Below, piece after piece: positions 8,801-46,390 of a stretch of DNA of 64,000 nt. The stretch comes from Nymphaea colorata (lineage: Eukaryota; Streptophyta; Magnoliopsida; Nymphaeales; Nymphaeaceae): the NCBI RefSeq assembly GCF_008831285.2, contig NC_045143.1, positions 4,659,503-4,723,502 on the forward strand, in the 5' to 3' direction. Position 1 is the first letter of the stretch, and the number at the start of each line of letters is the position of its first letter. Below the pieces are notes generated by a model. That model had not been told where the DNA came from. It did not search any database and saw nothing but the letters and a program-made list of their open reading frames with translations. Made by a program: the position numbers and the translations under genes.

Positions 8801-11800
8801 AGTAATTCATGTTCTATTTAAATTGTAAGTGCTTTTATGGTACATTGGGAGCTAGAGATGCATTTAGGTCATCCTGTTTTTCACTTTTTTGAAACATAAA
8901 TATCTTTTAGTGCTAATTTACTTAGAAAATGTTGTGCAAGCCTCACTCTTTTTAAAGGGTTTACAGTGCACGTTGTTTGGAAGAGAGAGACGTGCATTAG
9001 TTGAGGACCTCAAGTCACCTTATTAAACATTTTTCTGGAAACTTAAATATCTTCCCACCCTTTATAGGTCGTGGCAGAGAAAGGTGGTGGGGGGAGAGGG
9101 GAGGGGGGGTGGGGAGGAAGGGGTGGGTTAGAGAGGGTTCTATGTGGTCGAATTAATTAAAAGAAATGAATTTTATAGTGATTCCAATGAAACATTTAAA
9201 TACAGCCAATGGAACATTTGAGCTTAATTAGCAAGAAATCTAATTATGTTCTGTGTTGGGAACTTAAGTTTCTTTTCCTCATCCAACTGAAGTGTTAAAT
9301 ATAAATAAATGAAAGTACATTGTATAGTAACAGCCACAAATATCGTTCTCGGGAAAATATTGGCAACGTTTTTCTCTGGTTTTTTTCGGCGAAGCTATTT
9401 TTCTCAGAAAAATCTTGGCAATTTCTAATTTAAATAAAAAAAATTATGTAAAAATAAAATAAACAAAAAAAAAAGGAACTTGAAGGCGTAAAGCTTGCTC
9501 TTCTTCTATTGAATAGTTGAAACTTAAAAGATAGAAAGATAGGTGGGAGTAAAGGAATGCCCAAGCCCCAAAGGCCTACTGCTGGACTGCATGCCCTCTT
9601 CCTTCTCACGTCAGCAATGCCCAAGCCCGAAACCTATCATGGAGGGAAGAAGGGCTTAAAAGCCCTAATTCTCTTTCCCTTTTCCGTTTTTGCCATTAAA
9701 AAGAAGAAAAGAGTTCAAAACTGTCCTGCTAAAACGTTTTCATTACAAGACTACCTACCCCTTTTAAAAATGAAATGGAGCACGTGCAGTTTAAAAGTTT
9801 TAAATTTTTTGAAAAATACCAACAATGCCCCTGTTTGACCGCAACTTTAATCAGGGACGAAAAATGCGATAAAATCGCGTTTTTATCGCGATAAAATCAT
9901 AATATGTCTTTTTTGGCGATACTTTGAAAATATCATGGCATTTTTCCTTTTTTTTTCGTTTTCCTTGTTTTTATCGTAAATATTGCGATATTTGTGGCTG
10001 TGTTGTGTACACATGTGAATGAGCGCATACCCATGCACACACATGGCCATGTCACCGCATTCAAATTTTCTAAATAATAAATATGCCCCATAACAGTGTC
10101 TGCACCCACATCCTGTGACATAGGCCCTGGTCATCATCATTATTGTGAAGTGGAGGACTAGTCACTCAGGAAGACAAGAACTTTGTTCTTCGTGAAAAGG
10201 ATGAATATTTTCCGTCTGTTTTGTGCAAAGGACTTACAAAAGAAATGCTATTAATATGTTGCTTCCATCAAGTTCCTCGTCCCCCCAGAAAAATAGCATC
10301 CCGAAAGTGAGAAATGCAGCATGAATTCTAGGATCCCATGCAAACCATAGAGAGACCATCATGTATGTCACATTGTAAAACTGGTAGCAAATGCTTCGTA
10401 GAAATATTGATGCTGTAATTTTTGGTGTGTTTAATGGGCAAAACTTCTTGAATTCATGAATTGAATGTGACATAGCTTTGTTGATGTGGCAAAAGGTTCA
10501 CACCAAATTCTAGATTCATCAAATTAAAGAATTGATATGAAACCTAAGGTCCGGAGTTGTGCTCCCCACTTTGCTATTCTCACTGTCAGAACATCAGATC
10601 TAAGACCGGGGAGGGTCTGACATTAAATCCACGGCTAAGTATGAGAGACTATCCTTCAATTTCACATCTCTCGTCCATGATACAGTAAACTGCAACTCAT
10701 TGTTGATATGATGCAAGTTGAGACCACAATGCAGATGTACTTTCTTATTGTTGTGGTGCGGTGCTGCATACTTCTGTTTATGGAAGAATTTGTTTCTGTA
10801 TAGACAGCACCCAATAGATCTAACCTTTCTCCTTTACAGTACATGAGAGACACTATTCTCAGCAACTTCAGGAGAAGAATGCTTGCAATACTGAAGACTG
10901 ACAATGATCTTCAAAGGCCTTCTGTGCTTGAGACCTTGATACATCGTCATTTGAGGATTATCAATTTAGTGGAGCAGCATGTCAGCATGGACCTTACCCA
11001 AGGAATTCGTGAGATCTTTCTGAGTGAGGCATTCTGCGGCCCCTTGCATTATTTGAAACCTTCTGTTAAGCTTGCAGAGTATGCTACTGGCTCTGCAGTT
11101 CAGATTGTTTGTGACTGGTACATTGACAACATTATCAAAGATGTAAACAATGTGGGCATCCTGTTTACTCCAAGTCACAAATGCTTCAAAAGTGCAAGGC
11201 CTGTTGGTGGATATTTTGCAGATTCAATTGCTGACCTTGCAGAGTTAAAGGCTTTTGTTAGACTTTTTGGAGGTTACGGAGTTGACAAGCTTGATCGATT
11301 GATGAGAGAACATACTGCTGCTCTTCTTAACTGTATTGACATTGCTTTACAATCAAATCGTGAAGCGCTTGAAGCAATCTCAGCTAGCTTCCATTCTTGT
11401 GATCCAGTTGAAAAAGAATGCAGCGTGAAGCAGATTGTTGACATGGAAACAGTGATTGGTTTCTGCATACAAGCTGGGCAAGCACTGGCTTTCAGTTCGC
11501 TTTTGGCTGAAGCTGCTGGAGAAGTTTTGGATGAGAATGTTCCGTTGCTCTTTTCTCTTATGTCAGGGTTGACAAGGCACTTGCCTGTGGAGATACCTGA
11601 AAAGGCTGAAATAGGTAGACTGCGAGCTGCTGCAAGTAGCATTAATGTGAGTTTTGATCATGATACAGATTGGGTGCGATCAATTCTTGTGGCAAGTGGA
11701 TGTGCTAATGTGGGAGCACTGAGTCTCTTGCCATATCTATTTGCATCGTTTATGACTTCCAGCATTTGGAGCATAACCAATTTTAGTATTGATACTGGAG

Positions 11801-14243
11801 GATTTAGCAACAATATTCACTGCCTTGCCAGGTATTACACGTTCTGTGCATATTTTATGTTTCTGAACTAATAAAGATGTAGTACTTCCTGTTAAGATGC
11901 ATTTCAAATTTATGAAATACTGGCTATAAGAACATCTGCTTTAAAAACGTTCTTAAATAGTTTTGAGTCGGCCATCCAAAAATTATTAACTTGTATTAGG
12001 TTTCCTCTGTGGTTTCTGTATTTCATTTCTTTGGTCAAAGGCAAAACTTAACTTCTGTGTCATTCTTTTGTTGAAGTATAGAAGATATATATGCATAAAC
12101 TCATCAACAGCATTCATGCCACTGAGTGTTGGTGTATCTTTTTTGGTCTATCCAAGTTTGCCCATTTGTGAGAGATTAATGGTTCAATACTGGAAACATG
12201 TTTGTCTTTTAAAAATTTGTGCTTTCAAGGTGCTGTTGTGCTGGCCTGGTAGAAAATTGATTCCAAGGAGGTCAACAAATTTACAGGTGGCTCTTAAGTA
12301 GCTGGACAAATTGAAGGGGCATGCTCTTTTTAGGCTGTTACTGTTTACTAGCGGTAGACATGACATAAGGCACAGATTGAGCTTTTGGAAAGCTGAACCT
12401 GGTTATGTTTGGACTCACAAAAATTTCATACGGGTGCCTGGATAACATTGCACCTGGTTTGGCGTCAAGTGTGAGGCTTGATTTGACTTCAGATTTCAGT
12501 TGACATGGTCAGGACCAAAAATAGCCTGTGGCATGTCATGGCCAGGCACGAGAGGAGCCTGTAATTGAATTTTTTCAGGCATTGTTTTTTAGGATTCTGG
12601 ATTTTGCTGGGCTTCATTTGCAGGTTATCATATAGACACCAATGTGAAAAATAAGATGAATAAAAATAGGATATGAAAGTGGTTGATTGGACTGAGGTAA
12701 ACATAGGAAATATGAATCTCTGTCATTGACATATAGGGCAGATAGATCAGAAGACACCCAAGGCCACTATTAATTTTTTAATGGATAATATTCTATTTCT
12801 TCTTTGATTCTTGGCCTTTACACAGCGTATGATACAGTGGTAGCCAACATTGATCTCGGGATTCGAGAAGGGAAAAATCCTGAAACATGTCTTCTTAATT
12901 CTTTAGTCTTTGTTAAAGAGACCCAGGGTATATTTTGTTTGACTTAAACACAGGAAGCTTCACAAGTTCATTGGATGTCCTTTTGCTGTATCTACTTGTT
13001 TATCCCGTTGGTTGGTTGAAAGTTTGTAAGCTTATTACTTCTGGTAATAAAACTTGACAGACTATAGAAGTCAACAAGAAACCTGTGCAGAACTCTTTTT
13101 TTTATATAAATAAATAAATGTTCCTCAGATTTTTTGCTATTAGCATTTCTAGTTTCATATAGTTTCTTAATACCATATTTCTTGTTGTCTTTTGTTCTTG
13201 GTTGCAAAGTAGGATTAAAAGCATTGTGAATGTATAAGTCTGCTTCATCTGTCTCATCTACTGTCACAGGTGCATCAATGCGGTAATTGCAGCCAGTGAG
13301 TTTGTTAGGTTGGAAAGAAAAGAGCTTCAAAAGCAATCTCTTTCAAATGGTCATGCTAGTGAAACTTCAGATCCTGAAATCCAGAATCTTTTATCTGTTG
13401 AAGCAAGCATAAAATCGGTCATGCAACTCTATGTGAAATGTGCATCTTCGATGATAATGGATTCGTGGAATGAGACTAGCAGGTTTTTCCTTCATCATAG
13501 TTGCTTATGTTATTTCATTTAAATTAAATCTCTCCCCTCTTGGCTATGTTCTCTTTCATATGGTTCAAATCAGAGGCTTTTCTTTCTGAAACTAATCATA
13601 AAGATGCTTACAACTTTCTTGTTCCTAATATAAGTCTTTTATATTCATTGAATGAAGTTATAATAATCGTGTTACAGCTTTTTCTCATTGTCATGGATTA
13701 CTGAACTGTTTAGCTAATTTATCTCGTCATGATTGTGTGGTATGATGAAGGTCCCATCTGGTTCCCAAATTGATCTTTCTGGACCAGCTCTGCAAGATAT
13801 CCCCATACCTACCGAGAAGCACAATCGAAGTGCATATTCCTTACACAATCCTCCGTTCAATTTATCGACAGTACTATGGAAACTCACAGGTCTCACAATT
13901 GGCTTTGCTGAGCCCATCCCCACGCCAATCCCCAGCAGTACTTCTCAGCCACGCATCATCACCTGCAGCCAAACTCAACAACGTGGATGCAAACCCAGAA
14001 GCTTTCCTAGGCATTTCACCTGCTCTAAGAACATCTGGTCCAATACATCAGCAACTTATTGAGCCTGAGAATATGGACACGAGGCAAAATGACAATAAAC
14101 AGCGAAATATGCGTCGATCTGGTCCCCTGGAGTATAGTTCAAGCAGGAAGGGGAAACATCCTGGAGGACCTGCTTCTGGCAGCAGAGGCGTCAGTCCACT
14201 GCCAAGAATGGTTTCCAGATCTGGTCCATTGTCGTACAAGTAG
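396..14243 (+). CDS. NAP1: NAP1 (NCKAP1-like subunit of SCAR/WAVE complex), 5'-truncated by window edge
   Basis: Plant homologue of NCKAP1/HEM, the large scaffold subunit that with SRA1 holds SCAR/WAVE and lets Rac/ROP GTPases switch on ARP2/3 actin nucleation at the cell cortex. Exons read: 396-440, 590-732, 901-1033, 3501-3611, 3702-3780, 3893-4086, 5033-5168, 5915-5996, 6189-6299, 7190-7315, 7394-7533, 7619-7715, 10840-11831, 13270-13492, 13751-14243 (stop TAG). They sum to 3105 nt in one open frame, 1034 residues. All donors are GT and all acceptors AG. Landmarks recalled from Arabidopsis NAP1/GNARLED and seen here include KSGRTKQKEADLEY, GRMVLFFTDQPSLLAPNIQ, TSSRSSINIRHLEKAT, NTMFGPEGRP, EQHVSMDLTQGIRE and the C-terminal SPLPR...SRSGPLSYK. 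The Arabidopsis protein is about 1400 residues, so roughly 360 N-terminal residues lie left of the window. I found no exon in 1-395. The ninth-decile exon 10840-11831 (992 nt) is unusually long beside the 45-223 nt exons before it. Identification is very sure; the short exon 3501-3611 is the most divergent part. Confidence 0.95.
1681..1740. repeat. (TA)n-(CA)n-(TG)n microsatellite with hairpin symmetry
   Basis: A run of TA, then CA, then ATAT, then TG, then ATAT repeats. The CA and TG blocks are complementary, so the stretch can fold on itself. It is intronic in NAP1. Confidence 0.9.
1868..2325 (+). mobile_element. TRIM-type miniature LTR retroelement in a NAP1 intron
   Basis: Two direct repeats of about 186 and 196 bp (1868-2053 and 2130-2325) each begin TGTAACACCCC and end in TTGTTACA, so the ends form the usual TG...CA inverted repeat. 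Between them lie only about 76 bp. That stretch holds a primer-binding site complementary to the 3' end of initiator tRNA-Met (TGGTATCAGAGC, 2055-2066) and a purine-rich tract just before the second LTR (around 2116-2127). Each LTR carries a short hairpin (GAAGAT/ATCTTC) followed by a TATA-like CTTATAAAAG. There is no room for gag or pol, so it is non-autonomous. A clear 5-bp target duplication is not visible because the left flank is a GAGAG/GTGTG microsatellite; GAGAG occurs on both sides. It lies between the exons ending at 1033 and starting at 3501. Confidence 0.85.
5832..5860. repeat. (GT)n microsatellite in a NAP1 intron
   Basis: Fourteen or so GT units followed by GTAT units. It lies about 55 bp before the exon at 5915. 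Confidence 0.95.
8337..8651. mobile_element. hAT-type MITE with 8-bp target-site duplication
   Basis: A 315-bp element flanked on both sides by the identical 8-mer ATATTACC (8329-8336 and 8652-8659). Its ends are inverted repeats: the left end reads CTATGTCACCTGAG and the complement of the right end reads CTAAGTCACCCGGA. Subterminal GGGTGCGG motifs recur inside both ends, and the middle is an AT-rich TTATTATT tract. An 8-bp duplication with short TIRs is the hAT signature. At 315 bp without an ORF it is non-autonomous. It lies in the 3.1-kb NAP1 intron 7716-10839. Confidence 0.8.
9330..10001. mobile_element. Candidate inverted-repeat transposon (MITE-like)
   Basis: The 16-mer at 9330-9345 (ACAGCCACAAATATCG) is matched exactly by the reverse complement of 9986-10001, giving terminal inverted repeats 672 bp apart. 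Inside, 9869-9898 has GCGATAAAATCGCG-type palindromes. I see no convincing target-site duplication and no transposase. It sits in the same NAP1 intron as the hAT MITE. A chance 16-bp match is unlikely, but the superfamily is undetermined. Confidence 0.45.
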
Positions 14244-16065: not shown

Positions 16066-16205
16066 GTTCTGCAAATTTGGTATGAACTTCATCTTCCATC
16101 CCTTCACCTTCTGCCCTTCATAAACCTTTTCTTCCTTGTTTGGTGCCTGATCAGTTTCTACTTCCGTCCAGGGAACGAGGGGGCAAGAACATACCACCCA
16201 CCGCC

Positions 16206-16847
16206 ATGGGACGACTTCTTCCTCTCTTTCTGATAGTTATGACTTCAATGGCAGCCATGGCTTGGGCTGCTGCCACTTGGGTCGTGATCCCAAACGTCGA
16301 CAAAGACAGCCATGTCCAGAGCTTGGGTGCATACGCAGTGGCTAAACAGAACAACCCGTATCTCAAATTCATCAAAGTGGTGCGTGCAGAGGTACTGGAC
16401 CGCGGTACCCAGCATTACACCTACAGGTTGGCCATTCAGCTGGTTGAAGGCAGCCAGAAGAAGTACTACTGGAGCGAGGTCTTGCAGGATCTAGGAGCAC
16501 CTAACCAGCCGCCGGTCCTGAACATCGCCTCCTTCAAGCCCATCTCCGGCCCAGCTTCGACTCCCAACTGGGTCACCATCCCGGATGTGCAGAAAAATCT
16601 GCATGTGAGAAGCATAATCACATATGCAGTGGAAAAATTCAACTCACAGACTCAAGCTTCTTTCGAGTTCATCGACGTGCTCGATGGACAGCTCCTGGAT
16701 CGTGGTGCTAAGCATTACACCTACCACCTGACGATCAGGGTTCATGATCGCTACGGGGTGAAGAAATACAAGATTGAAGTGTTTGAGGACCTTAACACTC
16801 CAGGCGAGCCGCCAGTCCTCAATTTGGGCTACTTTATTTTGGTTTAG
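16206..16847 (+). CDS. Secreted protein with two degenerate cystatin-like domains
   Basis: Intronless, 213 residues. Residues 1-23 are a signal peptide (MGRLLPLFLIVMTSMAAMAW...). Two homologous cystatin-fold domains follow, about 25-113 and 122-213. Each opens with a W-V-x-I-P-(N/D)-V strand and an alpha helix that fits the plant cystatin signature (L-G-A-Y-A-V-A-K-Q-N at 40-49; I-I-T-Y-A-V-E-K-F-N at 137-146). Each ends with PPVLN. In working cystatins the next loop is Q-x-V-x-G. Here both domains instead have L-D-R-G-(T/A)-(Q/K)-H-Y-T-Y (64-73, 164-173), and the second-loop Pro-Trp and the N-terminal Gly pair are also missing. Papain-type inhibition by the usual wedge is therefore doubtful; a binding, storage or taste-type role as in monellin-fold proteins is only a guess. 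The start ATG has good context (CCGCCATGG); longer in-frame reading upstream has no ATG. An AATAAA lies at 16894-16899. Confidence 0.8.
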   Translation: MGRLLPLFLIVMTSMAAMAWAAATWVVIPNVDKDSHVQSLGAYAVAKQNNPYLKFIKVVRAEVLDRGTQHYTYRLAIQLVEGSQKKYYWSEVLQDLGAPNQPPVLNIASFKPISGPASTPNWVTIPDVQKNLHVRSIITYAVEKFNSQTQASFEFIDVLDGQLLDRGAKHYTYHLTIRVHDRYGVKKYKIEVFEDLNTPGEPPVLNLGYFILV

Positions 16848-39032: not shown

Positions 39033-42000
39033 ATGTCATTGACGGGAGTGAGAATGTCTGAGGAGGTTTGGCTAACGTGCCTCACTCATGCATTGTCTAC
39101 GGAGAAGGAGGAAGTCATGGGCCTTCTTCTTGGGGACATTCAGGCATGACTCTTGAGCTTCCTGCTTCTTCTTCTTCTTCTTCTTCATTTATCCTGTCTC
39201 CTCTCTCTCTTTCCTTCTTGGCATCTGTTTTTAACTAGTGAGGGATCGAAGGGAACGCATCAGCACTTGTTGGGACTTATTGTACTCATTGGTGCGTTTT
39301 TCTTGATCAGCATTAAACTCAAGGAAATACATGGGCAGCGTTTCCGGTTCATCGTTGGTACATTGGAATTGGTTCATTCATATTCTTTTTCGCTTTGCTT
39401 GTGTTGCCGTTTCTTGGCCCTGGGCATTTTCTTCATTGGATCAAACGGAAGAGGCAGCGCCTCTTTTGACCAGATGTTTGAGTAGCTTATGATGGCTGAT
39501 TCAGCTTAATTGGGTGTGTGGTTTTTATTGGAGATTCGCTTTCTCAAAGTATAACTTTTCTGTAATTCCAATTGTTTTGGTGGTTTCCAATTCTTTTCGT
39601 TCTTGGCTATTAAAAATGAGACGGAAAACTGTTCTCTCTTGCTTGGCACAGTCTATTATTGGAATTGCGTTTGATTTTATGGTATGACAGGGTAGGCCTA
39701 TTGCCAAGACGCTATGAATAGTTCTTGGGTGCGGTTCAAGATTTTAGTTAGGTAGTGGGAACCGGAATTTACTGAGCAGTTTTTCCTGATGCAATGTGCA
39801 ATGTTGCAGTATGGTAGAAACGGTAGTGCAACGGCTCTTATATGGGGAGCATCGCCACAGCCTAGATCTGATCGTCGGAAGGATAGAGTGGAGACAAATC
39901 CTGAACAGTTGGCAGCCGCATCAGCTCAGGCTGAAATATCCTATACAGATAGATTATAATTCGTTGTCCTTGCCCTTCTATGTGTTTTCTGAATTTAAAC
40001 GCTAATATAATTGATGCTTTTGGCCTTGACCTACAAGCACAGAATGTCCTTGGCAACAGGGAAGACGACACGTGTAATTGGATGGTATCACTCACATCCT
40101 CATATTACAGTTCTTCCATCCCATGTTGGTAAGCATGACTTTGCTAGGTAGCCTATAATGTCTCGTTTCCTGTTGGCATTTTTTTCTGTTTCCCTTGCAT
40201 TTGGACTTACATCTCATGAGCAAGGTGATTCACATTTCATTATTGTGTATGCCTCTTAAAAAAGAAGTGCACAAAAGTGGCATATTTTTCATTACTCTGT
40301 ACGCCAAATGCATTTTGATTGAATTAATTTAGCAAAACTGTTTCATGGATATATTTGTATATTCTTGCTTCTCGTAATGATATGCTTCAGTTGATGAAAT
40401 CATACTCTTTTAGTTGTTCCTATTTGAAGCAACATACGTGCCTCACATATGGAGGTGGCTCCTGAACCTCGTATTTTTATAATCAGTAGCAACTATCCAC
40501 AAAGAATTTGACAGTTTCTCTTCCTTTAATGCTTCATTGTGCTCGATCAAATAAGGAATAAGCATATCTGCTTTAGTATAATAGATAAGCTCCTCCCATG
40601 ACTACCTTGTCCACTATTAACTATTCAGTGAGGCTTTCTTCTTCGTTGCATATTCCGAGTAGAACATTATATCACATTTTTTTACCACATCTCTCCTCTT
40701 AAATATCTATCTTGCTTTGCAATTTCAACTCATTAGCATGACCATAGGCCTATGTCGCATAGGTGCGGGGGCACAAGTATGAAAATTTGAGACACCAATC
40801 AGAAGATGTGGCTACAGGGTGTATCAATATATATACTCCCTCTTTCAGACTGGCTGAACCACCTCTTGCTCTCTCGCTTGCCCATTTTCCACCTTATCTC
40901 TATCATTCAATGCACAACTACTGTGAGCAGTGAATGAGGAGAGAGAAATAGAGAGAGAGAGAGAGGTGGGCTTTGGCCAATCCCATGGAGGGACTAGCTG
41001 AAAGCATTTCTTTATGTTTATATGTTCGTGCATAATCCTTGGACCATGTGATAATCCATGTAGTTGAGCAAAGTAGTTTGTAAGTTCATATTCTCAAAAT
41101 ACATGGCATGACTTGATCCACATGACCCTCCACTTGCAGGTTCCAATCTACTTATGAAATCCTCCATGTGAACCACCTTATCACTTGGACCTGTCAGAAG
41201 GCATTGATACACATGCATATTCTTTGAATTTATTTTCCTTGTTATTTGACCCCGACCATCATAAATTCATAATCCTATACCTCAGTCTGGATATAAGATT
41301 TAAGACATAAGATTAAGGTGATTGGGACTTATGAATGGATGCTACTAGTCGATAACCTTTCGAATATGTTGGTACCTCCATGTTTCATGAAGAAAAATGT
41401 GCTTAATGACTTTCAGCACCTTTACGAGCATGTTACTAACCTTTTATATTATTCCTATACAAATTCAAAATCTGTGCAACTTCATAAAACATCAAAACTG
41501 GATGGCAATAGAAAAATATCCCTAAAAGTTTGGATAAAAAATTGCAATGTACTTTGGGGAATCATGAAATTGTGCATGAATACTAGGTTAACATGGCTTT
41601 CTAGCTTCCATGTATTTGTTTAACTGTAAATGAGTTAGTATGGAGAGAAATAGTGATAGAAACACTGACAAGGCCACAAGGAAGAGTAGGATGATGGGAA
41701 AGAGCAGAGACGGTTTGAAGACATTAGGGCAAAATGAGAGTTTTACGCAGAGTTGCCAAATGTGTAAGTGGGAGCAGAAAGGGGGTGAGGCCCTTAAAAA
41801 AATTATGTAATGGAAATCTGGAAACATGCTAGACATGAACCTGGAATTGAACCAGAAGTGAAAAGAGAATGAATTAGGAATCAGCTAGAAAGTGAAAATT
41901 ATGACATTTTCTAAACAAAAATATATTACTTATGGTTCAAATTAAGTCATGAGTTACTAAAAGATATATGCTCACATACATAGGTGCATGCATGAAGGTG

Positions 42001-42073
42001 GATTCCTCTGGCCAGATGGGATCCCCTGTGATCAGCATCAGGTGACCTCCTTTCACGCTGGAGGAATCCAGTA

Positions 42074-42109
<36 letters not shown>

Positions 42110-45100
42110 GCACACACACACACACACACACGCACGTACATGATTCATACATATGTATATTTATGTATGTATATATGTATAAGAAATGCATATATAATTC
42201 AAGGAAGCATTCCTCACTTCCTCTTGCATTGGAAGCAATCTTCCGTTCTCAATAAGGCACATTCTATTGTGTGAAGCATGCTTCCTAAGTGGTTGTAGTG
42301 CTTGCAGTAACTTTGGCCCTATCCCAGAAAGATTAAAAGTCATTAGAATATCCTATCTGTTGCTTAGAATGTGGACTGGAAATCAGCATGTTTAGGTACT
42401 AGTACGTCCTTCTTAAAAGAAATGTATTATTGCAGAATTAGATCCTCGTCAATTATGTGTGATTCTCAGATAATACTTTTCTATTGTGGCCCTCTCTCTC
42501 TCTTTCTCTCTTGTGCGCTCACGTGTGCACATTAAAGGTCTTTCTCTTCTCCCTGTAAAGTCTTGGTTTTCCCTTTTCCCTCTTATTTTCTTTGCAGCAA
42601 AATTTTATCCTTGTAATTACAACGCTGCATCTTTAGTAAGTCCGCCGCTATATTCTTCAATCTTCATCCATCTCAATGTTATTACTGCACTTCACCTAAT
42701 CACCAGTCTCAACCATCCATTTTTTAGGGTAGTAAATGACTACAATTGATATGTCTTACAACCTTTTTTATAGATCAGTGTGTTTTTGCAACTGTTAAAG
42801 TCTAGTACAACATATTCATGTCTGTGTATTGAGCTTTTCTGAAGGCATTTCCTTACACCTGACTGTTTCTATTGCAGATGTTCGAACTCAGGGGATGTAT
42901 CAACTTCTAGATTCTGGCTTCATTGGCTTGATATTTTCATGTTTTAGCGAGGATGCACAGAAGGTAGGTCAGATAACTGTATCTGTTGGTATAGTATATT
43001 TCAATTCTATGACTCTCATTTGCGGGCAATTGCAGGTGGGGAGAATCCAGGTTATTGCTTTTCAATCTTTGGATGGTAAGCAAAAAAGCTTTTCAAGGTC
43101 TCAAAATCCTAATCCAACCAGTGGGGGCCCGATTATAAATGTCGAGTCATCTTGGAGCTCATCAGAAAGTCTGTCATCGGCATCTGCATCTGCCCGGGAT
43201 GAAAGTGCCTTCCAAGATACTTCTGATTCTCGAAATGTAACTAGAAGTGCTAAGGTACTTCCTTTTGTGTACGGTTATCATATTTCTTTGCTTGTGATGT
43301 CATCAAACTCAACATGGATTTTAACTAAATAAGTCCTATTTCATCTTATTTCTTGCTGCTGTCACCATACCATATTAATGCTATTGGCAAATCTGTGACC
43401 TTCAAAATGGAGATAAACAATGTTATCTTAAAAGTTATTTGTGGAGAAAGTAAGTTGCCCGGGATGAAAGTGCCTTCCAAGATACTTCTGATTCTCGAAA
43501 TGTAACTAGAAGTGCTAAGGTACTTCCTTTTGTGTATGGTTATCATATTTCTTTGCTTGTGATGTCATCAAACTCAACATGGATTTTAACTAAATAAGTC
43601 CTATTTCATCTTATTTCTTGCTGCTGTCACCATACCATATTAATGCTATTGGCAAATCTGTGACCTTCAAAATGGAGATAAACAATGCTATCTTAAAAGT
43701 TGTTTGTGGAAAAAGTAAGTTGCACGGTGTAGGGGAAAACGCTAGTTGGAACCTGAATAATAGCTCCTAGTCCACAATAGTGATCCAATACTCAAATGAG
43801 TAAATTATTTCTTTTAAAAACCCAAAGAAGAGCAAGGAACAAAATAACACAAATTCTTCTAAATTTTGTTGGATTATAAAGGAAACCAATATTTTCTTTT
43901 TTCTAATCCCCCTTTTAAGCAGTCATCTGCTGGCTAGTTATTGGTTTGGTGCTAGGTGAGCACGCGAGAGAGAGAGAGAGAGAGAGAGAGAGGCACTAAT
44001 TCTTAGTTTCAGAACATTAAGCGATCAGCCGATCACAATTACTAGCTGTTAAGGCCCCCTGAGTGTTGGGTGCCCTTCAAATGGACAGTTCGTTTGGTCA
44101 ATATGCAAATGAAGTTAAAAAATTTACTTTGATATGTAAAGAGGATATAACTATGGAAAAAAACTTTTAGGAATTTTGCGTCATTCTTTGTGTTATGCTG
44201 TGTTATTCATTGTTTAGGAATTCTCTCTTTCTTCCTTCTCTTTCTGTGTCTGTGTTTGTATGTGTATGTTATGTTTTACCCATAACCACTTCTTTGCCCT
44301 TCTTCATTGTATCACATTAGGGTGCTGGGAAGAATATTTCTCCATCAGATTTGGAGGAATTTTTTGCTCATGCAGATGTCAATCAAGCAGGGAGGGGAAA
44401 GCTAAAATCAGAGCCTCTCTCACCTTATACCCACAATGACACCGTACAACAAACAGTTGATATTGATCCTATGGATATGACCGCTGGTATGCAAGAGGCC
44501 ATGCATCGCTCAAATTTAGATATGAGGTAGTGTAAATATAATTTTTATGTGTTAATTTGTTGTGTTCTTTTTGTGGCTGTCCTGGGAGACATGTTATGGT
44601 CTTTCATTACCTGAAGTTATGGAACATGTTGTTACACACACACACACACACATCCACCCCCACACCTACATAATTATTTTTATTCGAAAAAAATAGTCTT
44701 ATTTTACCCTATAAAGTAGCTAAGCAAAATGTTACCATCTTGCAGGGAAATGGTTGGTGGCCTAAGCAGCAGAAATTGTACTCCTTTTTTATCTCTAAAT
44801 TGACGATATTGATGAATATTTAATTTTATTAAGATATGAAGCTGATAATTGGTATTCATTTGTCATATTTGAACAGCTTTTTTTTTTAGTTAATCATCAT
44901 TTACATGGAATATTCCAGCAACTTCAACATCCACAATGTAACAATGATGATATTCCTGACATCCATGTATGGTGTCAATGTTTGAGACAAACTTGGTTTT
45001 CAGAGATCTAAATAAGCTCTGTTGAACTTTCATTACCAGACCTTTTTATAGCATATGAGCATGTAACAGAAAGAAAGAAAAAATTCTATCCAGTGGCTTC

Positions 45101-46390
45101 TTAGATTCTATTATAGAATCTGCATCCTCTTTCTTGCTAGGTAGCTGACTAGGGGTGTATCGATCCAGTTCATGTGATCTTTTCATGTCTATGTTTAGTA
45201 CACCCTTCCCGTGTTTATTCCACTTATACCTCCAGCCTTTATGTTCTCGTCATCCTTTTGTTGCTGAATTGTGACCTTTTGTGGGTGAGACATACTTGCC
45301 ATGACCAATCTTGTTGTGCAAGTATGTGCCTTCAGAATATACCGCTAGCTATCCAACTTTTGTCCCGCTCAGCTTAGTCAACCATGATACTTTTGTCTCT
45401 TTGATCATTCTCTTGAGCATTCTAGGGACTACTGTAGATTTAATGCATAATCTCTTTTTTACTTGTTATTTTTCATTAGAATCTGGAAATTCTGTTCAAG
45501 TGCTTTCTAAGCAAGTACTGTCTTCAATGCCAGTGGTGCTGAGTACACGAGGAAAGAAGTTCCTCTTCAAGTTGTTCCAAGCTCTTCACTTCTGAAGCTT
45601 GATTCTCCTTTGACATCATTCATTGATATGCAAACCATGTTGTTTGAGGAAGAAAAGACAGCATACAATCAAGCAGTTTCTCAGTGCAAATGGTGATCTT
45701 CTCTCCCTTTCGCCCCAGAAGCTGTCAATTGACTTAATTTCTTTATTTTGCTTGGCTGCTTTTAATTTTAAGTACCTGAGTGTTGGCAGATAATGAGAGT
45801 CCTCGACATAACATGATTGTTCTTGTGTTATTTTACATCTTTTCTTTCTTCTTCATCTTTGAGATTTTTAACAGTCCTTTTTTTCTGTCTAGGGACGGGA
45901 AGATTCATCCTCTTGCCTTCATTCACCACACCTCAACCTACCATGCCTCGTTATGCAAATTGATGGAGTACTGGTTGGTCTGGTGCTTTCTTTAGTTTTG
46001 CAGCTATCTTCTAATGACTGCCTTTGGTTAAACGTAGCCTTGAACTCTTGCAGTTTGAGTCCTGCTATTGTTTCACTACAGCACCAGTTGAAGGAGAATG
46101 ATGTTAGGGTGAGTTTGCAATTTTGGTTGATTGTTGTTTCCTTGGAGCATATATGACGACTAATGCACACCATGAAACAGCTATCGTTGCTGAAGGAGGA
46201 AGCAGAGGCTTTAGAGATTGAAGCTTTAAATCGAGCTGGTAGTCCTATCCTGAGTGCTGCTGGGTCTTTGACGAGTGGTGTTCGGATGCTGCCTTCAGTT
46301 GGGAGGGAACAAAGTGCTTCACCTGAGCGTGCTGCTAATGTTAGGAGCCCTGTTGGCATGACTTCTAGTCGAAGTAGAAGGGGTTACTAG
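39033..46390 (+). CDS. BRCC36: BRCC36-like Lys63-specific deubiquitinase (JAMM/MPN+), complete
   Basis: Zinc metalloprotease that cleaves Lys63-linked ubiquitin chains; in animals part of BRCA1-A and BRISC, in Arabidopsis linked to DNA repair and recombination. Ten exons: 39033-39143, 39810-39935, 40041-40128, 42878-42963, 43036-43254, 44321-44526, 45516-45692, 45893-45973, 46054-46108, 46181-46390; 1359 nt, 452 residues. The JAMM motif is complete: glutamate in E-E-V-M-G-L-L-L-G-D (exon 1) and H-S-H-P-H-I-T-V-L-P-S-H-V-D (exon 3), matching H-x-H-x7-S-x2-D. Other conserved blocks are D-R-V-E-T-N-P-E-Q-L-A-A-A-S-A-Q-A, L-L-D-S-G-F-I-G-L-I-F-S-C-F and F-I-H-H-T-S-T-Y. A serine-rich linker lies in exon 5 and a serine/arginine-rich tail in exon 10. 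Intron 1 begins with GC, and intron 2 is U12-type AT-AC; both are forced by the frame. The exon 7 acceptor (45514-45515) was chosen because it alone keeps the frame. Confidence 0.93.
39144..39809 (+). other. GC-AG intron (BRCC36 intron 1)
   Basis: Exon 1 ends ...GACATTCAG and is followed by GCATGA. No GT lies between this point and the in-frame TGA two codons on. The homologous protein continues directly with exon 2 at 39810 after ATGTTGCAG. A GC donor is therefore required, although its downstream bases match the usual GCAAGT only partly. Confidence 0.75.
39936..40040 (+). other. U12-type AT-AC intron (BRCC36 intron 2)
   Basis: The intron begins ATATCCTA and ends ...AAGCAC. Position 40024-40030 reads CCTTGAC, the U12 branch-point consensus, with the branch A 11 nt from the 3' end. 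Removing exactly 39936-40040 joins ...A-Q-A-E to R-M-S-L-A-T-G in frame. No GT-AG alternative preserves this junction. Confidence 0.88.
42074..42131. repeat. Compound (TA)n-(CA)n microsatellite in BRCC36 intron 3
   Basis: About eleven TA units followed directly by about eighteen CA-type units with CG interruptions. Confidence 0.9.
43192..43721. repeat. 265-bp direct tandem duplication over the BRCC36 exon 5/intron 5 boundary
   Basis: Copy 1 (43192-43456) starts in exon 5 at GCCCGGGATGAAAG, crosses the splice donor at 43255 and runs into the intron. Copy 2 (43457-43721) repeats it nearly exactly. I count about four or five substitutions, all in the intronic part. Copy 2 therefore carries a duplicate of the last 63 exonic bases and a second identical donor. 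Confidence 0.92.
43969..43992. repeat. (GA)n microsatellite in BRCC36 intron 5
   Basis: About twelve AG units between the tandem duplication and exon 6. Confidence 0.9.

Follow-up and report, generated by a model that had tools for sequence, protein, structure and literature searches.

A predicted U12-type AT-AC intron in an apparently single-copy BRCC36 gene of Nymphaea colorata

Introduction

The window studied here, i.e., the whole 64 kb stretch of Nymphaea colorata DNA that was analysed, contains a 105-nt segment at 39936-40040 (+) that a preliminary description presented as a textbook U12-dependent AT-AC intron inside BRCC36, with the implication that the case was novel. The locus raises two questions: whether the segment would be spliced as a minor-spliceosome intron, and whether such an intron in this gene is new. 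The best explanation, to which we give a probability of about 0.94, is that 39936-40040 would be intron 2 of an intact and apparently single-copy plant BRCC36 gene, and of the U12-dependent AT-AC class.

Gene model and copy number

Protein comparison assigns the gene to BRCC36, a predicted JAMM K63-deubiquitinase. BRCC36 chains are the top-ranked protein matches in the PDB, and the Pfam JAB domain PF01398 is matched with E = 2.9e-17; the identity originally proposed was thus confirmed. The model comprises ten exons on the forward strand, from 39033 to 46390, joined into one intact frame of 446 codons plus the stop. Homology supports exon 1 with the start codon (39033-39143), exon 2 (39810-39935), exon 3 (40041-40128), exon 4 (42878-42963) and, of exon 5 (43036-43254), the initial 15 codons. 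The remainder of exon 5, exon 6 (44321-44526), exon 7 (45534-45692), exon 8 (45893-45973), exon 9 (46054-46108) and exon 10 with the stop codon (46181-46390) were placed solely by their open frame and splice sites. The JAMM motif, H-x-H-x7-S-x2-D, is present in the spliced frame as HSHPHITVLPSHVD. Exon 3 codes for HSHPHITVLPSHV and contributes the first base to the codon of the catalytic D; intron 3 interrupts this codon after its G (G|AT). Hence, the claim that the exon following intron 2 codes for H-x-H...S..D holds for HSH and S, but for D it extends only to that first base.

In the whole-genome protein search (407.8 Mb, 783 contigs), eight candidates were scored and four matches were obtained at E <= 0.001, all of them on one contig (C6) and each corresponding to one of BRCC36 exons 1-4. 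No BRCC36 paralogue was found genome-wide at this threshold, which divergent copies could escape, and the gene is apparently single-copy as judged from these matches. The search for relatives was also extended to other genomes: a scan of viral contigs returned three pattern matches and no relatives, and a scan of prokaryote genomes returned 36 pattern matches, three of which encode distant relatives, one of them from a Lokiarchaeota bin.

Of the nine introns, seven have GT-AG ends; the exceptions are intron 2, with AT-AC, and intron 1 (39144-39809, +; 666 nt, phase 0, CAG|GCATGA...TTGCAG), which was read as GC-AG. For intron 1, the GC-AG reading has a protein score of 431, two AT-AC pairs that carry no U12 motif score 430 and 429, and no GT-AG pair exceeds 392. 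The AT-AC pairs score nearly as high owing to the poor conservation of zebrafish BRCC36 in this part; given that the protein score alone is not decisive, the GC-AG reading is preferred for its CAG|GC and TTGCAG sites. GC-AG introns account for 0.3-1.6% of U2 introns in Arabidopsis, soybean, rice and maize (PMC7367187, Table 2). Introns 1 and 2 of BRCC36 are thus probably both outside the GT-AG rule. The warning that gene finders restricted to GT-AG would mis-model this gene is borne out by the AT-AC intron 2, and intron 1, probably GC-AG, adds to the problem.

A side observation concerns the region 43191-43720, a 265-bp head-to-tail duplication whose copies are 98% alike, and which repeats the last part of exon 5 together with its donor site and some of the intron behind it. 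The duplication yields two possible exon 5 donors, at 43255 and 43520, and readthrough to the second runs into stops.

Splice signals of intron 2

The coordinates, the length of 105 nt, the ATATCCT start, the AC end and the CCTTGAC motif 11 nt from the 3' end, all given in the preliminary description, are exact in the sequence. Exon 2 terminates in ...GCTGAA at 39935 and exon 3 opens with AGAATG at 40041; between them, intron 2 begins with ATATCCTATA, ends with ...AAGCAC, and lies in phase 0. Its 5' splice site, ATATCCTA (39936-39943, +), matches seven of the eight letters of the consensus ATATCCTT, which was taken from PMC2831892 and PMC2426677. The sole departure is at +8, where the intron has A and the consensus T. 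The branch-site core CCTTGAC occupies 40024-40030 (+), with the presumed branch A at 40029, and the branch site GCCTTGAC agrees with the consensus TCCTTAAC in six of eight letters. U12 branch sites tolerate a purine directly before the branch A. The AC acceptor at 40039-40040 (+) sits at the coding junction, 10 nt past the branch motif and 11 nt past the branch A, and a spacing from branch to 3' end of 10-15 bases is quoted for U12 introns in a passage of PMC2426677.

These values indicate a strong U12 signature, though an imperfect one: the U12 motifs are present, yet one donor mismatch and two branch-site mismatches make the term "textbook" an overstatement. The phase also counts mildly against the U12 class, in which phase 0 is under-represented (PMC7367187).

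Taken alone, the motif set is mildly unusual and constitutes weak evidence. In its strict form (ATATCCT donor, and CCTTRAC with its A 8-16 nt from AC), it occurs a single time in the 64 kb when both strands are searched, and dinucleotide shuffles contain at least one such set in 13 of 300 cases for lengths of 50-200 nt and in 123 of 300 for lengths of 50-1500 nt. The full 8-letter consensus ATATCCTT occurs twice in the window, both times outside intron 2, a count not above expectation. A wider scan, which admitted U12-like introns of up to about 1500 nt with an AT or GT donor, CCTTRAY and either AC or AG at the end, found no other donor in the window and none on the minus strand; it paired the intron 2 donor with three possible ends, at 40037, 40040 and 40042, the last of which would break the frame.

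Exon junction and competing splice sites

The position of the junction can be judged from protein homology. The BRCC36 chains in the PDB span the exon 2/exon 3 junction free of gaps, and both printed types agree: 5cw6_A (DrBRCC36, which we take to be zebrafish), aligned with an E-value of 2.3e-50, and 6r8f_A (BRCC36, presumably human), with 1.6e-48. Donors whose last exon base lies in 39850-40000 were combined with acceptors at least about 40 nt downstream, up to 40100, and the 3265 pairs that keep the frame open were scored against the protein. The top score, 431, was reached by two pairs, the AT-AC pair 39936-40040 and its 1-nt slide (TA-CA), which give identical mRNA. The junction 39935/40041 is hence favoured by homology without recourse to splice motifs, as it has the top protein score among the 3265 pairs. 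The spliced frame across it reads ...PEQLAAASAQAE|RMSLATGKTTRVIGWYHSHPHITVLPSHV (...AQAE|RMSL...). The earlier assignment to the U12 type is upheld by this junction along with the donor and branch-site agreement.

This result changes the weight of the motifs. In the two strands of the window, ATATCCT was counted 14 times and CCTTRAC 11 times, so that by these counts ATATCCT is expected at one given base with a chance of about 1 in 9000 and CCTTRAC within a 9-base zone with a chance of about 1 in 1300. By simple arithmetic from the same window counts, the joint chance of both at the junction that homology requires is about 1e-7. Chance is therefore negligible, given that the motif set falls exactly on the homology-favoured exon junction.

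The other classes of splice site pairs scored lower, the best values being 423 for AT-AG, 411 for GC-AG and 388 for GT-AG. The AT-AG pair with 423 is 39938-40042, whose donor begins within the U12 motif. In-frame acceptors also exist just upstream of the AC at 40040: an AG at 40036-40037 (+), which would add one residue (His), and an AC at 40033-40034 (+), which would add two.

The first of these gives the alternative that survives best, a U12-type intron of 102 nt with AT-AG ends at 40037 and a protein reading ...AQAE-H-RMSL... with one His inserted. This pair uses the U12 donor, keeps the frame open, has its AG at a distance of 8 nt from the branch A and reaches a protein score of 420, against 431 for the AT-AC pair; moreover, ends besides GT-AG, GC-AG and AT-AC make up about 4% of orthologous plant minor introns (PMC10639083). 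The inserted residue, however, is missing from the aligned BRCC36 chains, and the AC at 40040 already fits the spacing quoted in PMC2426677, which makes this ending very unlikely. Use of a nearby ordinary U2-type intron in place of the AT-AC one is less credible still. Open-frame pairs are available near the junction, four of them GT-AG and twelve GC-AG, yet even their best scores fall short of 431, and the best three pairs of each class all change the conserved stretch. Removal of the AT-AC intron by the major spliceosome can practically be set aside: although U2-type AT-AC introns exist, SCN4A intron 21 being one reported in the cited passage of PMC2831892, the present intron has the U12-type ATATCCT donor and the CCTTGAC branch site at the usual distance, and in the four plants covered by PMC7367187 no more than 0.05% of U2-type introns are AT-AC.

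If intron 2 were retained, translation would continue as EISYTDRL and stop at an in-frame TAA at 39957-39959 (+), upstream of the catalytic motif. Retention would thus end the protein ahead of that motif.

Predicted splicing and the minor spliceosome

For the AT-AC intron at 39936-40040, the donor ATATCCT would pair with U11 and later with U6atac, and U12 would pair with CCTTGAC around a bulged A at 40029, the presumed branch nucleotide. Ligation by the minor spliceosome would next place AGA (40041) directly after GAA (39935), which would restore ...AQAE-RMSL... before the catalytic HSH...S..D exon.

When the window was scanned with Rfam, nothing reached the gathering scores. In the same genome, U6atac snRNA has five matches above the Rfam cut-off of 33, the best with 97.6 bits, at loci L009-L013, every one of which covers the full model. 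The two best genes, L009 and L010, share an upstream stretch, AATAGTCCTGTAT, at about -65, with four (L009) and three (L010) mismatches in comparison with the plant USE; of these two, L010 alone has a TATA, at -28. Such a promoter-like upstream stretch was not seen at the three lower-scoring U6atac loci. Near their 5' ends, L009 and L010 carry GAAAGGAGAG, which can pair with the donor TCCT and which we take to be the donor-pairing region of U6atac.

By analogy with other plants, intron 2 would most likely be removed by the minor spliceosome. In Arabidopsis, minor-spliceosome mutants show impaired U12 splicing and impaired growth (PMC4892727). A further proposal is that introns 1 and 2 jointly act as a slow-splicing checkpoint, in which DNA damage or stress, via the supply of minor spliceosomes, would set the level of active BRCC36, the minor intron having been kept since the plant-animal ancestor. 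The preliminary description suggested that the efficiency of the minor spliceosome would decide whether active enzyme is made; for BRCC36 this may hold, and it corresponds to a hypothesis published for minor introns at large. Slow minor splicing has been proposed in general terms as a control of gene output (PMC3728624 and PMC2426677), but the title of PMC10639083 argues for neutral processes, which partly counters the idea, and we regard the checkpoint as improbable.

Relation to known U12-type introns

In comparison with plant AT-AC U12 introns, intron 2 shares the ATATCCT donor, the CCTTRAC branch site, the AC end and the short distance from branch to end, and differs in the A at donor +8, the G preceding the branch core and the phase of 0. 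AT-AC introns make up 26% of the U12 introns in Arabidopsis, 23% in soybean, 22% in rice and 13% in maize (PMC7367187, Table 2).

The implied novelty did not survive comparison with the literature. A passage of PMC2831892 describes more than 200 Arabidopsis U12 introns, of which U12DB matches only two, those of EXOSC5 and BRCC3, to orthologous U12 introns in human. Given that BRCC3 is BRCC36, as stated in PMC12475092, a minor intron in BRCC36 has been in print since 2010. Intron 2 is hence not new in kind, the same gene being already reported with a U12 intron in Arabidopsis and human. The likeness consists of the same gene and the same intron class, and the comparison is by gene and class alone, as the passage of PMC2831892 gives neither position nor terminal letters. 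Intron 2 very probably corresponds to the Arabidopsis and human BRCC3/BRCC36 U12 intron, an orthology of position that we infer. Among the papers retrieved, none linked BRCC36 with AT-AC, and passages of PMC12475092 name no BRCC36 U12 intron.

By itself, intron 2 leaves existing knowledge unchanged. It is useful for checking the BRCC36 gene model in this genome, and it adds a further data point on a minor intron that is unusually old. Should its position match that in Arabidopsis and human, the intron class would have been kept since before the plant/animal split in a DNA-damage repair gene, and intron 2 would therefore be usable as a reporter for plant minor-spliceosome activity.

Other open reading frames in the window

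Two further open frames were observed on the forward strand. That at 16140-16847 encodes 235 aa and looks like a two-domain cystatin, a name given by reading the sequence. That at 10843-11871 encodes 342 aa and appears similar to part of a NAP1-type SCAR/WAVE subunit.
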